Virus record (IMG/VR): IMGVR_UViG_3300033153_009192
Coordinates: 1 to 30,413 of that record
Reading direction: 5' to 3' (one strand)
DNA from: a virus
DNA length: 30,413 bases
The position numbers and the translations under genes are program-made. Under the pieces are notes generated by a model, which worked only from the letters and a program-made list of their open reading frames with translations, made no database searches and was not told the origin of the DNA. Positions 2,785-28,432 of the stretch are shown piece after piece. The first letter of the stretch is position 1. Each line of letters opens with the position of its first letter.

Positions 2785-4799
2785 ATTTTAACCTCTGTTA
2801 AGTGTCCCCAGTTCTTACCTTTTTCAAAATCCATTATCAATGGAACTCTCATAGGTAAACAATTTTCCATAATATACTTCATTTCTTTTATAACTTTTTT
2901 ATCCTGTTTATAATTACAGGAGAAGTTTAATTCGTCATGAACAGTAATCTGCGGTGGTCCTCCTAACCTATCATAGATACCGGCTTCATAAGTATCTACC
3001 ATAAGCTTCTTCATGAAGTCAGCAGCAGTCCCTTGTAATACACTGTTTAATGCCTTATGAGTGAAGGCTCTTTGTATATTCCCTTCCCCAAACTTCTCGG
3101 ATGCTTGAGAGAAGGTGTATGAGTGCTCTCCCCAAGGTTCTTCCCACCGATGAAACCTGGCTCGTCTTCCCATAAGGGTAGTGACAAAACCATACAACTG
3201 AGCTCTTTCCATATAATAATCAAAGGTAGTTTTAACAAAAGGCACACCAGCATGGTAAGCAGTCATTAAATCCTTTGCTTTTGTTGTTGATAAACCTAAA
3301 CTTTTCTGAAGTTTTTTCTTTCCCATGCCATAAACTATACCAAAGTTAATTGATTTAGCAGGCTTACGTTCAAGCAATATATTAGTAATCTCATTGATTA
3401 ATTCAATAGTAGTTTGATGATAATCTGTGTTAGGATATTTCTTATATAGTTTACGGATACCTTTAGAGCCGTTACCTCTGGCAAAATGAGCAAGTCCTCG
3501 ATATTCAATTTGACTTGCATCAGTCTTTAACCAGTCAGAAAAGCCTTCATCAGGCACAAAACAGCCACGAATAAGAGGAGCGTATATCGGATCACGTGAG
3601 GGTATATTCTGTAAGTTCGGATTACGGGAACTGAATCTTCCTGTAATTGCTCCACCTGCATCTCCTTTGAGTTGTGTAAATTCACAATGTATCCTTCCAT
3701 TAACATTTTTTTCAAGTATGGCTCCTTCAATAAATGTAGCTCTAAGTTTAGCCATACCTCGTATTTGAACAATCAACTGTGCAATATCACTTGGATGATT
3801 TTCTAAAAACAACTTTGTAAATGAAGGTTGCCCTTCTGGATGAGTCTTTGAAGGCTTGGTGTAACCATAGTGTAAGTTGTTATTGTCAAAAGCTACTTTA
3901 ATAGTTGCGCTGGCATTGACATTTACCTCACTTCCGGCTATCTTGTTTAATTGTTGTTGTAGGGTATCTTCATTAGTTATTAACTGATCCCTGACCTGCT
4001 CAGCTTGGTTGAGATCAACTCGTACTCCTCTGAAACGCATGTCTAAGAGAAGCGGTATTAATCGTTGTTCAAGATCTAACACTTCATTGAGTTTTTGTTT
4101 GTCGATTAACTTTCTTTGTTTTTTCCAGATTTGATATGGTTGCCAAGCGTCGCCTTCTGCATAAGGTCCAACATACGAAACCGGAGCTCTGTAGATATTT
4201 GCTCTTTGATTACTACCAACCTGTCCTCCATAATACTCAGCGCACCATGAGTACAGCTTTTGAGATACCTTCCCCGTTTTAAGGTATTGTCTTGCAATTG
4301 AATCAAGGTTATAAGATCTTCTGTGCTCATTTAGTAGTGCCTCCACATGCTGAATGTCAAGATAAGGACCGGGAACATTAACTCCCTCTGCACGAAGTCC
4401 TCCAATATCGTATATAATGTTTGCCCCAACTTTTAAAGCATTAGTACAAAGATTATCCTTACACCAAAGTAACACTTTATCAGGATCACAATTAAGATTA
4501 CTTTCTATAGTATGCCTCATTGGAAGGTATAAGGTTTCTTTCTTACCTGTTCCAACAGATACACTTACACCAACAAGATGACTATCTCCTCTTGCCCATC
4601 CCGGTCCATGAGTGAGTAAACGGGGATCAAAAGTTTCCGTGTCTATTGATAGTATCTTTGCATGTTTAAAATTAGGCCATTTACTTGGTTTAAGTGGTTT
4701 CCAAGAACTATGTATTCTTGGTTGTATATTCTTCTTACTACCCTTTCGTTTCCGTGTATTTTTTATACGTGGAGTCCAGAAGAGGCCTGTTTCACCCAT
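2781..4799 (-). CDS. polA-like: family A DNA polymerase with 3'-5' exonuclease domain
   Basis: 672 aa. An N-terminal DnaQ-like proofreading domain carries SIDTETFD, with the acidic pair D53/E55 of Exo I. The polymerase domain has motif A as DASQIEYR (D427; the usual residue after the Asp is Tyr, here Ala), motif B with R-x3-K482-x7-Y490-G, and motif C as H621-D622-E623. There is no 5'-nuclease domain, as in T7-type replicative polymerases. It should be the phage replicase, working with the clamp-like protein upstream and the primase-helicase at 17.0 kb. The start (MGETGLFW) overlaps the HNH stop by 8 bp, so its ribosome-binding site lies inside the HNH gene. Confidence 0.97.
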   Translation of the reverse strand: MGETGLFWTPRIKNTRKRKGSKKNIQPRIHSSWKPLKPSKWPNFKHAKILSIDTETFDPRLLTHGPGWARGDSHLVGVSVSVGTGKKETLYLPMRHTIESNLNCDPDKVLLWCKDNLCTNALKVGANIIYDIGGLRAEGVNVPGPYLDIQHVEALLNEHRRSYNLDSIARQYLKTGKVSQKLYSWCAEYYGGQVGSNQRANIYRAPVSYVGPYAEGDAWQPYQIWKKQRKLIDKQKLNEVLDLEQRLIPLLLDMRFRGVRVDLNQAEQVRDQLITNEDTLQQQLNKIAGSEVNVNASATIKVAFDNNNLHYGYTKPSKTHPEGQPSFTKLFLENHPSDIAQLIVQIRGMAKLRATFIEGAILEKNVNGRIHCEFTQLKGDAGGAITGRFSSRNPNLQNIPSRDPIYAPLIRGCFVPDEGFSDWLKTDASQIEYRGLAHFARGNGSKGIRKLYKKYPNTDYHQTTIELINEITNILLERKPAKSINFGIVYGMGKKKLQKSLGLSTTKAKDLMTAYHAGVPFVKTTFDYYMERAQLYGFVTTLMGRRARFHRWEEPWGEHSYTFSQASEKFGEGNIQRAFTHKALNSVLQGTAADFMKKLMVDTYEAGIYDRLGGPPQITVHDELNFSCNYKQDKKVIKEMKYIMENCLPMRVPLIMDFEKGKNWGHLTEVKI

Positions 4800-5322
4800 T
4801 ACAATACTCCTTTATATATCTAAACGCAGAACTATCTTCATTACATTTGTTCCAGTTAAGACATTGTTCAGCAGCTAACCTATGCGCAACTCCTTCTGTG
4901 AAATCCTTAAAATAACCTAAATGAAGGTTCTTATAACTTACCATAATTCTAACAGACCATATATTATCTCTTTTATACCAAGTTATTCCTGTTATTCCAC
5001 TTGTATTACTCTTACTTAACTTTGAGTTTCTTGCGTTACATTGTCTTGATGTTTCTCTAAGCTTTTTCCATTTATTGTTACTTGAGTTTTTATCCTTATG
5101 GTCTATTTCATATTCAGAGAAGTAACCTTTTTTATACAGCCAGGCAAGTCTGTGTCCTAAATAGAGCTTTTTATTTAGTCTTATTTCCAAATAACCAAGT
5201 TTATTGTAACTACCTGCTATATCGTTTTTATACACATGAGAAGAAACTCTTTTTTTCCATATAAAAATACCTTTCTTCTTTTTATATTTTAACACCTTCT
5301 TTAATGTCTTTTGTGTTATCAT
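4792..5322 (-). CDS. HNH homing endonuclease with AP2-type DNA-binding domain
   Basis: 176 aa. The HNH core lies at about residues 57-99: GHRLAWLYKKGYF, then E-I-D-H-K-D at 72-77 and the Asn residues at 79, 82/83 and 96/99. The C-terminal half (about 105-165: SGITGITWYKRDNIW, then LGYFKDFTEGVAHRLAAEQ) is the AP2-like domain that usually follows in free-standing phage homing nucleases. It sits exactly between the clamp-like and polymerase genes with overlaps at both ends (TAATG upstream, 8 bp downstream), as a selfish element inserted without breaking either. It is clearly related to the 7461-8138 protein. Confidence 0.93.
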   Translation of the reverse strand: MITQKTLKKVLKYKKKKGIFIWKKRVSSHVYKNDIAGSYNKLGYLEIRLNKKLYLGHRLAWLYKKGYFSEYEIDHKDKNSSNNKWKKLRETSRQCNARNSKLSKSNTSGITGITWYKRDNIWSVRIMVSYKNLHLGYFKDFTEGVAHRLAAEQCLNWNKCNEDSSAFRYIKEYCNG

Positions 5323-7460: not shown

Positions 7461-8138
7461 TTAAAAATAGATTTTGGCTTTTTTCTTTAGATGACATCCT
7501 TTTTTGTTTTGGATTTTTGCAGGTATCTGTTTCTTAGGACCAGCAAAACTACAGTAATATTGTATAAAATAGGCGCAATCATGACAACCTCGTAATCCTT
7601 TTATTGGTTTTACTTTAAATAAATTCTTTTGAACATATTGATAAGCAGGACTTGATAAGTCACATCCTTCCCAATTAAGGGCTTGTTCTCCTGCAAGTCT
7701 AAGACAAACTGCTTCTAAAAAGTCTTTTGATTGTCCTAAAAAACATCTCTTTTTATTAATTAAAATTCTTACGTCCCAAAAACCTCTTTTTGTTTTATAT
7801 ATTCCTTTTACTCCAGAAGTATTATCTTTTGGGTTTCCAGTATTTCTTGAATTACAAGAGTGACTTACCTCTCTTAAGTTTTTCCATTTATTATTGTTTG
7901 GATTTCTATCTTTATGATCTATACAATATTCAGGAAAGTAACCTTTTACATATAACCAAGCAAGTCTATGTGCTTTATAACAAGTACCCTTAATAGTTAT
8001 ATAAATATATCCTGCTGGAGATATGCAGCCAGCAATTTTATTCTTTTTTGAAACACCTCCGATACTTTTTTTCCATATAAAAACACCCTTCTTCTTTTTA
8101 TACTTAAGTATTTTTTTGAGTTGTTTTTGTGTAAGCAT
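7461..8138 (-). CDS. HNH-AP2 homing endonuclease with an added Cys-rich tail
   Basis: 225 aa. Residues 1-170 closely parallel the 4792-5322 protein (MLTQKQLKKILKYKKKKGVF; HNH core at about 57-99 with C-I-D-H-K-D-R-N; AP2 domain at about 105-165). Residues 171-225 are additional and hold C185-x2-C188-x7-C196-x18-C215, a likely zinc-binding unit (GCHDCAYFIQYYCSF ... KGCHLKK). The tail resembles short stand-alone phage Cys-rich proteins, so the endonuclease may have inserted at the start of such a gene and captured its body in frame. Its ATG lies 2 nt past the nuclease stop codon, with AAAGGGA upstream. Confidence 0.9.
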   Translation of the reverse strand: MLTQKQLKKILKYKKKKGVFIWKKSIGGVSKKNKIAGCISPAGYIYITIKGTCYKAHRLAWLYVKGYFPEYCIDHKDRNPNNNKWKNLREVSHSCNSRNTGNPKDNTSGVKGIYKTKRGFWDVRILINKKRCFLGQSKDFLEAVCLRLAGEQALNWEGCDLSSPAYQYVQKNLFKVKPIKGLRGCHDCAYFIQYYCSFAGPKKQIPAKIQNKKGCHLKKKAKIYF

Positions 8139-14062: not shown

Positions 14063-14091
14063 ATTATAATTCATTTATTAGGGAATGTCAA
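14063..14091 (-). promoter_or_regulatory. consensus sigma70 promoter, minus strand
   Basis: A perfect TTGACA (14086-14091) and perfect TATAAT (14063-14068) on the minus strand have a 17-bp spacer. The spacer contains ATTC...GAAT inverted arms also found in the 16.78-kb promoter. Initiation near 14056 precedes the membrane peptide gene by about 60 nt. It should drive the genes from 13993 leftward to 10448. Confidence 0.85.
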
Positions 14092-16765: not shown

Positions 16766-16794
16766 AATATACATTCTATGATTAGGAATGTCAA
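16766..16794 (-). promoter_or_regulatory. sigma70-type promoter, minus strand
   Basis: On the minus strand, TTGACA (16789-16794) and TATATT (16766-16771) have a 17-bp spacer. The spacer holds the dyad CATTC-N9-GAATG and matches the spacer of the 14.08-kb promoter (both read TTGACATTCC followed by TAAT). It drives the zinc-ribbon and ParB-like genes. Its -35 lies 22 bp from the first of three operators. Confidence 0.8.
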
Positions 16795-16815
16795 TATTTA
16801 AATTATGATTATTGA

Positions 16816-16873
16816 TGACAATCTTTGTCACTGGTAGTGACATTTTTTGTCAGTGAGGTGACAATTTTTGTCA
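16816..16873. promoter_or_regulatory. three tandem palindromic operators
   Basis: Three 15-bp copies of TGACAWTYTTTGTCA lie at 16816-16830, 16838-16852 and 16859-16873. Their centres are 22 and 21 bp apart, so they face the same side of the helix. The third extends to a 19-bp perfect dyad (GGTGACAA-TTT-TTGTCACC). A weaker copy (TGACAATGATTGTTA) at 16892-16906 overlaps the -35 of the plus promoter. Their position between divergent promoters indicates binding of a dimeric regulator controlling both directions. The regulator is not identified. Confidence 0.85.
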
Positions 16874-16890
16874 CCACTATATGTTGTGGA

Positions 16891-16919
16891 TTGACAATGA
16901 TTGTTACATGAGATATAAT
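16891..16919 (+). promoter_or_regulatory. consensus sigma70 promoter of the primase-helicase gene
   Basis: A perfect TTGACA (16891-16896) and perfect TATAAT (16914-16919) with a 17-bp spacer. Predicted initiation near 16926 gives a leader of about 100 nt that contains a small GC hairpin (GTAGC/GCTAC, near 16957-16970) before GGAGG at 17014-17018. The -35 overlaps a degenerate fourth operator. Confidence 0.85.
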
Positions 16920-17026
16920 ATCTATGTTGTGGACACTCTGGCCAGGGTGAGGAGCGGTAGCCCCGCTACTATCGCTTCGTTCCACTCCATTCTCTCTTAG
17001 CGCTAACCTGTGCGGAGGTTATTCCG

Positions 17027-26543: not shown

Positions 26544-27179
26544 ATGGCTGATCCAACTTTCACAGATGACCAAACCGCTTTTATTATCACCAAAGTAAAT
26601 GATGCTGTCTCTGGGCTCAAAGACAAGAACACTGAGCTCATAGGTAAGCTTAAAAAGGCCACAACTCAACTTAATGGATTTGTTGATGTTGACCTTAAAC
26701 AGTTGGCAAAGGATTCTAAAACCCTAAAAGCCCTTCAGAAGAAGCAGGATGAGGCTGAGAATAACTACAAGAAATTGTATGGTCAGCAGACTGACCAGCA
26801 TAAAACTGATACAGATAAACTTACATCAGAGCGGGACACTGCAAGAAAAGAGGTAAAGACCCTTAAAAAGACAACAAAATTGCAGACTGCTCTGGTCGAG
26901 CATCATGTTGACCCTGTCATGATGCAAGCAGCTGAAGGCATGCTGCTGCCTGAAATCTTAAAAAGCTGGGCGGAAACCGATGTTGGCAAACGTTTTGTTA
27001 CTGATGGTAACTCAGGTGGCGGTGCTGGTGGTGATGGTGGTAGGCATCCTGCCAATGAAGCGAAGTACTTCGATAAAGCATCTAAGGAGTACAACTTGAC
27101 TAAGCAGGCAGCCATCAACAAAACTAATCCTGCATTGTACCAGAAGTTGGCTAAAGCCGCGAAATCACAACAGAAATAA
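26544..27179 (+). CDS. scaffolding protein (putative)
   Basis: 211 aa. It is a predicted coiled coil across residues about 20-120 (KVNDAVSGLKDKNTELIGKLKK, ALQKKQDEAENNYKKLYGQQ, TSERDTARKEVKTLKK), then a helix, a Gly-rich linker (GNSGGGAGGDGG) and a basic C-terminal helix (LYQKLAKAAKSQQK) suited to capsid binding. This is the classic architecture of a phage scaffold and it lies immediately before the major capsid gene. It should direct prohead assembly and then leave. TAGGAGAAAAAT precedes the ATG. Confidence 0.8.
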   Translation: MADPTFTDDQTAFIITKVNDAVSGLKDKNTELIGKLKKATTQLNGFVDVDLKQLAKDSKTLKALQKKQDEAENNYKKLYGQQTDQHKTDTDKLTSERDTARKEVKTLKKTTKLQTALVEHHVDPVMMQAAEGMLLPEILKSWAETDVGKRFVTDGNSGGGAGGDGGRHPANEAKYFDKASKEYNLTKQAAINKTNPALYQKLAKAAKSQQK

Positions 27180-27194
27180 ATAATTTTTTATTTC

Positions 27195-27224
27195 TTGACA
27201 ACAACGGCATATATGTAATATACT
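27195..27224 (+). promoter_or_regulatory. sigma70-type promoter upstream of the capsid gene
   Basis: TTGACA (27195-27200) and TATACT (27219-27224) have an 18-bp spacer and lie in the gap after the scaffold gene. Predicted initiation is near 27231, about 45 bp before a strong terminator hairpin. Confidence 0.75.
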
Positions 27225-27230
27225 AAAAGT

Positions 27231-27323
27231 ACAATAAGATAAGTGGGAAAGGCAAAGCCTGACCGCGTTCGATAAGGTCGTATCTACCGGAGAAAAGTTT
27301 CTTCATGTAGTACGACCTTTTTT
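27231..27323 (+). ncRNA. candidate small RNA or attenuated leader between scaffold and capsid genes
   Basis: The stretch from the promoter to the terminator would give an RNA of about 90 nt. It contains a GGC-AAA-GCC mini-hairpin (27251-27259) and GACC (27261-27264), which can pair with GGTC (27276-27279). That second pairing would compete with the 5' arm of the terminator, an arrangement typical of attenuators. No open frame fits. The GGCAAAGCC piece recalls part of the GEMM-I c-di-GMP riboswitch, but the rest does not match, so no class is assigned. Confidence 0.5.
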
Positions 27324-27340
27324 ATTTTTTTTTTTTTTTT
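27274..27340 (+). terminator. very strong intrinsic terminator before the capsid gene
   Basis: Arm 27274-27282 pairs with 27311-27319 over 9 bp, extended by CTAC/GTAG (27284-27287 with 27307-27310) after a one-base bulge. The stem is followed by T6, an A, then sixteen T (27325-27340). It would end transcripts from the promoter at 27195 and partly those from upstream, leaving the capsid gene dependent on read-through or another start. Confidence 0.85.
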
Positions 27341-27360
27341 AATCCATTTAGGAGAAAAAT

Positions 27361-28377
27361 ATGGCTTCAACAAAATTATCGGATCTTTATGATCCCACCC
27401 CTTTTGATGCTGCGGTAGATGAGGAAGCAATCGAACTTAATGCTTTCTTGAACTCTGGTATTCTTACACCTTACGATCAGCTGAGTGCGATGGCTGCCGT
27501 TGGTGGTTTTGTAGGCGAAATGCCTTTCTTCAAACCTCTGGATGTTTCTGCAGAGCCGGATTACACCAGTGACGATCCAACAAGTTTCTCAACTCCGGAT
27601 GTTATCACAACTGGTTTGCAGAAGTATCGTCTGGCCAAACTTCACAAATCCTGGTCCACAATGGACTTTGCTCGTGAGCTTACCTTGGCTAATATGGATC
27701 CGCTTGCTGCTATCACTCGTAAAGTCGGCAAATTTTGGGCCACCCAGGAAGAGAAACGGCTGATCAGTGCTTCCATCGGTGTTATGAACGACAACGTTTC
27801 CAGCGATGCTGGTGACATGGTTGTTAATATTTATGATGACATTGCAACTCCGCTGGCCGCAAATATTATCAGTGCTGAGGCTGTACTCGATGCCAGGCAG
27901 ACTGCTGGTGATCATCAGATGATGTTTACTGCTGTTGCCATGCATTCTGTTACTTTTACCAATCTTAATAAGCAGAACTTGATTGATTTCATCCCGGATG
28001 CTCGTGGTGAGATTAACTTTCCGACCTATTTGGGTATGGTAGTTGTTGTTGATGACAGTTTGGCTCCTGTAACTGGAACCAACTCTCCGTCTTATACGAC
28101 TGTTCTTTACGCTCCTGGTGCTTTTGGTTATGGTACTGGTCGTATGGAAGTACCTTCTGAATTGGATCGTGTTCCGAGTTCCGGTGATGGTGGCGGTGAA
28201 GATATTCTTCATACTCGTCGTAATCCGCTGATTCATCCTGCTGGTTTTCAGTTTACATCAACAACCGTTGCTTCTGCTACAACTGCAACGCTGGCAGAAC
28301 TCGAGTTGCTTGCTAACTGGACTCGTGTTATTGATCGTAAGCTTACCGGAATTGCTTATTTGGTACACAATAACTAA
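27361..28377 (+). CDS. major capsid protein
   Basis: 338 aa, the expected size for a HK97-fold coat protein made with a separate scaffold. Features include the N-terminal acidic arm, an extended segment PFFKPLDVSAEPDYTSDDPTSFSTPD, a long helix (DPLAAITRKVGKFWATQEEKRLI) for the spine, a second helix region (AEAVLDARQTAGDH) and GMVVVVDDSLAPVTG before the C-terminal domain with NPLIHPAGFQF. It forms the icosahedral shell. AGGAGAAAAAT precedes the ATG. Codon use is more G/T-rich than in the terminase genes. Confidence 0.9.
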   Translation: MASTKLSDLYDPTPFDAAVDEEAIELNAFLNSGILTPYDQLSAMAAVGGFVGEMPFFKPLDVSAEPDYTSDDPTSFSTPDVITTGLQKYRLAKLHKSWSTMDFARELTLANMDPLAAITRKVGKFWATQEEKRLISASIGVMNDNVSSDAGDMVVNIYDDIATPLAANIISAEAVLDARQTAGDHQMMFTAVAMHSVTFTNLNKQNLIDFIPDARGEINFPTYLGMVVVVDDSLAPVTGTNSPSYTTVLYAPGAFGYGTGRMEVPSELDRVPSSGDGGGEDILHTRRNPLIHPAGFQFTSTTVASATTATLAELELLANWTRVIDRKLTGIAYLVHNN

Positions 28378-28401: not shown

Positions 28402-28432
28402 AAGGTAGGAGTGTAAAAGCTCCTACCTTTTT
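28402..28432 (+). terminator. intrinsic terminator after the capsid gene
   Basis: AAGGTAGGAG and CTCCTACCTT pair over 10 bp (28402-28411 with 28420-28429) around an 8-nt loop and run into TTTTT. It is just downstream of the capsid stop and should raise capsid mRNA relative to the neck genes. Confidence 0.85.

Follow-up and report, generated by a model that had tools for sequence, protein, structure and literature searches.

The 181-nt gap between the scaffolding protein gene and the major capsid protein (MCP) gene of a 30.4-kb virus record, here called the window (30,413 nt analyzed in full), is likely the 5' leader of an MCP gene that is transcribed on its own, and it likely acts as a transcription attenuator. 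Late genes in the window run in the order terminase, portal, a 70-amino-acid open reading frame, scaffold, MCP, and neck genes. The scaffolding gene (26544 to 27179, plus strand; phrog_206 head scaffolding protein, E = 2.9e-12) is the upstream neighbor, and the MCP gene (27361 to 28377, plus strand; phrog_247 major head protein, E = 1.2e-89) is presumably the controlled gene. The gap holds, in order, a promoter, a strong hairpin, a T6-A-T16 run, and a Shine-Dalgarno (SD) sequence, after which the MCP gene starts. Because the MCP gene has its own promoter and is followed by a terminator made of an 11-pair hairpin with a T-rich tail (28402 to 28429, plus strand), it can be a separate transcription unit. 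Placing a strong terminator downstream of a promoter but ahead of the gene whose protein is most in demand is sensible only when termination is regulated or leaky. The original prediction offered either a discrete small RNA or an attenuator. We favor the attenuator because relatives keep the terminator directly before the MCP SD, with its 5' arm shared with a competing fold in eight divergent phages and, more weakly, in a ninth. A free small RNA is less favored, and the discrete RNA of ~95 to 110 nt would be a terminated by-product, not necessarily a functional one.

The individual elements of the gap are as follows. A sigma70-type promoter on the plus strand (27195 to 27224) matches 11 of 12 consensus positions, with TTGACA at -35 (27195 to 27200), an 18-nt spacer, and TATACT at -10 (27219 to 27224), and from its position transcription would be expected to start near 27231. 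The terminator stem (27274 to 27319, plus strand; 5' arm, 27274 to 27287; 3' arm, 27307 to 27319) consists of 10 contiguous pairs, one unpaired base, and 4 more pairs, plus an upper stem. Thus, the hairpin predicted at 13 bp is indeed strong but has a different size, 14 pairs with one unpaired base. The U-tract (27318 to 27340, plus strand) is made of T6 (27318 to 27323), the first two of which pair within the stem, an A (27324), and T16 (27325 to 27340), and the SD AGGAGA (27350 to 27355, plus strand) lies 9 nt past it. Promoter, hairpin, T6-A-T16, and nearby SD were all confirmed as predicted, and the arrangement is not readily produced by chance: among 2,000 dinucleotide-shuffled gaps, 11 contained such a promoter, 8 contained a comparable terminator, and none contained both. 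The leader RNA has a folding energy of -33.1 kcal/mol (z = -3.9 versus shuffles). T16 is the sole A/T homopolymer of at least 8 nt within the window, and its exact length comes from one metagenome assembly, the sole other contig of this virus (L002) beginning inside the MCP gene. Slippage at T16, also proposed, is unsupported, as relatives carry T5 to T10 or interrupted U-tracts at the same position.

Plus-strand promoters scoring at least 11/12 number four in the window, versus 0.43 expected in shuffles. We note that a perfect TTGACA-17-TATAAT promoter lies on the minus strand of the early region (14063 to 14091). We also note a region of divergent promoters (16795 to 17026), with TTGACA-17-TATAAT on the plus strand at 16891 (12/12) and TTGACA-17-TATATT on the minus strand at 16794; the inverted repeats between them, TGTCACTGGTAGTGACA (16826 to 16842) and GGTGACAATTTTTGTCACC (16857 to 16875), resemble repressor operators.

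Upstream of the terminator, and partly within it, the leader can form a three-way junction on the plus strand. P1, obtained with a three-way-junction descriptor and a constrained fold, pairs AGATA (27237 to 27241) with TATCT (27281 to 27285). One unpaired A (J1/2, 27242), an A in all eight aligned members, leads to the P2 hairpin GTGG..AGG-CAAAG-CCT..CCGC (27243 to 27266), which also appears in the unconstrained fold. The linker J2/3 (GUU, 27267 to 27269; G(U/C)(U/A) in the eight members) is followed by the P3 hairpin (27270 to 27280), read as CGA-TAAGG-TCG or CGAT-AAG-GTCG. The same order, with P3 abutting the 3' strand of P1 without a linker, is found in the window and seven relatives. Across these eight leaders, P1 has 3 to 6 pairs (only a weak 3 in L047 and L073), P2 opens with a G-C pair, and P3 has 3 to 5 pairs and a loop either of 5 nt or of 3 nt closed by Y-G.

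The junction and the terminator are mutually exclusive, because the 3' strands of P3 and P1 make up the terminator 5' arm. The overlap measures 5 to 9 nt in all eight leaders (the window, L049, L053, L078, L225, L073, L026, and L047). When leaders were truncated before the terminator 3' arm, the unconstrained minimum was the junction in five (L049, L053, L078, L225, and L026), and when the 3' arm was added, the fold flipped to the terminator with a gain of ~11 to 16 kcal/mol. In the window, the preterminator RNA preferred P2 and P3 without P1 (-18.5 versus -17.4 with P1). A different antiterminator had been proposed, in which GACC (27261 to 27264) pairs with GGTC (27276 to 27279). That stem could form, but relatives do not keep it, and the conserved competitor of the terminator is instead P1 (AGATA/TATCT) plus P3 (CGAT-AAG-GTCG).

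IMG/VR, bacterial genomes, and phage records supplied loci encoding the same MCP family. Their scaffold-MCP gaps span ~2 to 35 nt in many isolates and contigs and reach 50 to 280 nt and more in others, many of the longer ones being structured. Since gaps of just 2 to 35 nt lack the element, it is dispensable in many phages of the same MCP family. Nine phages (the window, L047, L048, L049, L053 [= L006], L073, L078, L095 [= L026], and L225 [= L220]) mostly have a promoter-like sequence, then hairpins, and then a terminator shortly ahead of the MCP start. A GC-containing stem with an immediate U-tract lies between promoter and start codon in the window and the eight relatives. The U-tract begins 0 to 1 nt past the stem, as is typical of terminators, and the end of the stem is 26 to 42 nt from the MCP ATG in the eight phages measured. 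The ninth phage, L048, fits the shared-arm fold loosely, and its P1 is not clearly formed.

Helix sequences vary between phages while pairing is retained. In a structural alignment of eight members, built by hand from the folds and hence biased towards structure (MAFFT alone misaligns P2), 138 of 148 cells were paired, versus a shuffle mean of 108. Moreover, 12 of 19 pairs carried changes in both strands (shuffle mean, 6.2; a count that 2 of 2,000 shuffles reached), although the changes are not all independent, as five of the eight members have the GATA/TATC form of P1. The covariation score was 142, versus 27.9 +/- 9.4 in shuffles. The leader of the window itself had no close copy, either by exact search of IMG/VR or by DNA similarity against phage records, and the scaffold protein used as bait in IMG/VR led to no confirmed relatives.

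The element appears specific to this position. A 22-nt DNA pattern taken from J2/3, P3, and the 3' strand of P1 of three members was scanned across all of IMG/VR and matched six stretches, every one leading into this MCP gene. One match, L220, belongs to a phage absent from the pattern set and was found independently, as L225, through its MCP. In 2.4 Mb of sequence (redundant and counting both strands), a fold descriptor matched at 10 distinct places, of which 8 are MCP leaders and 2 lie elsewhere in GC-rich DNA; its recall is circular, since it was written from these eight leaders, but its near-absence elsewhere is not. No Rfam covariance model reached its gathering score in the window, and relaxed cutoffs (E up to 10 for the gap and up to 1 for 26 relatives) gave nothing relevant. 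Mu-gpT-DE RNA (RF03012) is named for its association with a phage head-protein gene, and its covariance model had no match over the cutoff in the window or seven relatives and none in the MCP gap.

Other leaders precede the same MCP gene. In a second group (e.g., L008, L012, L013, L018, L024, L083, and L099), a promoter and two hairpins, both with loops of UUUGG or near it and 20 to 33 nt apart, occur without a terminator. A third hairpin carries TTCTCC(A), a perfect 6- to 10-nt complement to the SD; in about a dozen leaders, this complement lies 33 to 52 nt ahead of the ATG, and variant SD flanks (AATGG, TTGG, and TAGG) are matched by the pairing partner. Because this hairpin is complementary to the SD, the output in the second group is likely translation. 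In a third group (L003, L009, L010, and L014), a gap of ~65 to 70 nt holds only two such hairpins. Prophage leaders have several hairpins sharing one loop each: UAAUG in Billgrantia (L136), CUGUG in Pseudomonas (L137 and L146), UGGUG in Lysobacter (L188), and UUGUG in Rhodobacterales (L144 and L254). A search of 780 genomes for prophage leaders gave three new loci: the first repeats a leader already known, the second (L254) adds a new leader with two UUGUG-loop hairpins, and the third has no such leader. Hairpin pairs with identical 5-nt loops occurred in 14 of 59 nonredundant gaps (shuffle mean, 0.15; maximum, 1). We infer that the second group, the third group, and the prophages carry the same element as the window, as position, spacing (mostly 20 to 23 nt), and loop type (Y-N-N-N-G) are shared, a likeness that falls short of proven homology.

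Several further features of these loci may be recorded. The same-loop hairpins number three to four before the MCP gene in prophages L136, L137, L146, and L188 (Billgrantia, Pseudomonas, and Lysobacter), and the MCP gene of the Lysobacter prophage may be broken, as it matches in two separate pieces. A long, operator-like inverted repeat overlaps the -35 and spacer of the MCP promoter in L013, L017, L024, L028, and L083, for example, CCAAACCAC-TTGACATATCTT-GTGGTTTGG in L083. In cultured relatives (L209, L210, L211, L212, and L216; Vibrio CA8, Pseudomonas PaMx25, Acinetobacter HD01, MiCath, and Alteromonas R7M), the MCP leader is of another type, its hairpins being closed as C-AUGG-G and some leaders also having a long CATGC/GCATG stem. 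Several of the phages with C-AUGG-G leaders belong to the Queuovirinae.

Could the two hairpins instead load a factor after which polymerase ignores this and later terminators, as at nut or PUT sites? Tandem short hairpins do precede a terminator close to a promoter, and their loops vary between phages as in boxB. The arrangement also recalls lambda Q at pR'-tR', nut, and HK022 put, where a promoter is followed within ~100 to 200 nt by a terminator to overcome. Sites of the nut/boxB type, however, stand at operon heads, usually more than one per genome, whereas the element here stands before a single late gene, away from the operon head. Moreover, identical-loop pairs in whole contigs G010 and G011 were found solely in the MCP leader (the contigs are incomplete, and single sites would escape the scan), and the contigs tested showed no repeat of the element outside that leader. 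Overlap of P3 and P1 with the terminator arm is not required by a processive system, and the second group has an SD-pairing hairpin in place of a terminator. We consider processive antitermination rather unlikely.

A discrete small regulatory RNA might merely be located in the gap while the MCP gene is transcribed from upstream, and promoter and strong terminator do bracket an RNA of the expected length. That account is quite improbable given that relatives keep the element so close to the MCP start, that other phages have an SD-pairing hairpin in the terminator's stead, and that upstream transcripts would be stopped by the strong terminator too. Finally, MCP must be highly expressed and a U-rich stretch before an SD can boost translation, but a constitutive leader in which hairpins guard mRNA ends, the U-run recruits ribosomal protein S1, and a leaky terminator trims MCP without any switch is very doubtful, as stability hairpins require no mutually exclusive partner, conserved A, G(U/C)(U/A) junction, or identical loops, and the U-tracts abut the stem as they do in terminators.

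How an attenuator would control capsid synthesis can be outlined. By default, RNA polymerase would complete the terminator and free the short leader RNA. Read-through into the MCP gene would occur when a trans-acting factor holds the P1/P2/P3 junction, and capsid synthesis could thereby be timed or matched to head assembly. Judged from sequence, the leader probably sets the timing or amount of shell protein made. Our guess is that the putative factor is most likely encoded by the phage, with scaffold or capsid protein as possibilities, because the element was found only before MCP and because loops tend to be alike within a leader yet vary from phage to phage, which suggests a binder that is phage encoded and coevolves with them. 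When the open reading frames of the window were compared by tblastn with eight related contigs (incomplete), mainly packaging, head, and neck genes were shared; packaging and head proteins being the most widely shared, scaffold or MCP is a natural candidate binder. A shared nonstructural regulator gene was sought in the same comparison, which is not decisive given the incomplete contigs, and was set aside. Separately, the minus-strand open reading frames at 4792 to 5322 and 7461 to 8138 both align to one stretch of contig G001, and likewise to one of contig G013, and so look like paralogues.

Attenuator leaders are already known as a kind, and the capsid-leader version appears new in that it matches no Rfam family and a search of open-license literature found no description of capsid-leader RNAs. 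Ribosomal-protein leaders (L10, L20, and S15) and riboswitch attenuators are similarly structured leaders just before a gene, with a mutually exclusive terminator or SD-sequestering output that is swappable between relatives; the element here differs in serving a phage capsid gene and in matching no Rfam leader or riboswitch model. Phage translational operators, such as the MS2 coat hairpin and the T4 gp32, gp43, and RegA sites, are short specific-loop hairpins before a phage gene, whereas here a double hairpin is set in a three-way junction with transcription termination as the predicted output. Our best reading is thus an undescribed capsid-leader RNA in the style of a riboswitch or ribosomal-protein leader, with a swappable output. 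We speculate, more tentatively, that it could represent a widespread and undescribed family in tailed phages, in which paired hairpins sense scaffold or capsid, outputs (terminator or SD capture) are interchangeable, and loops coevolve with a phage protein; such breadth is possible but doubtful.

The ratio of capsid to scaffold and its timing in tailed phages are mostly explained by gene order, promoter strength, or RBS strength. A conserved switch RNA for the capsid gene, if true, would be a direct regulatory input into head assembly. If scaffold is the binder, capsid output would be coupled to scaffold level, and a capsid-protein binder that stabilized the antiterminator would act by positive feedback, an unusual arrangement. 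The leader is small enough for reporter testing in a laboratory host. Ultimately, if the reading holds, one sensing fold would be coupled to different outputs, in riboswitch-like fashion, in phage structural genes.
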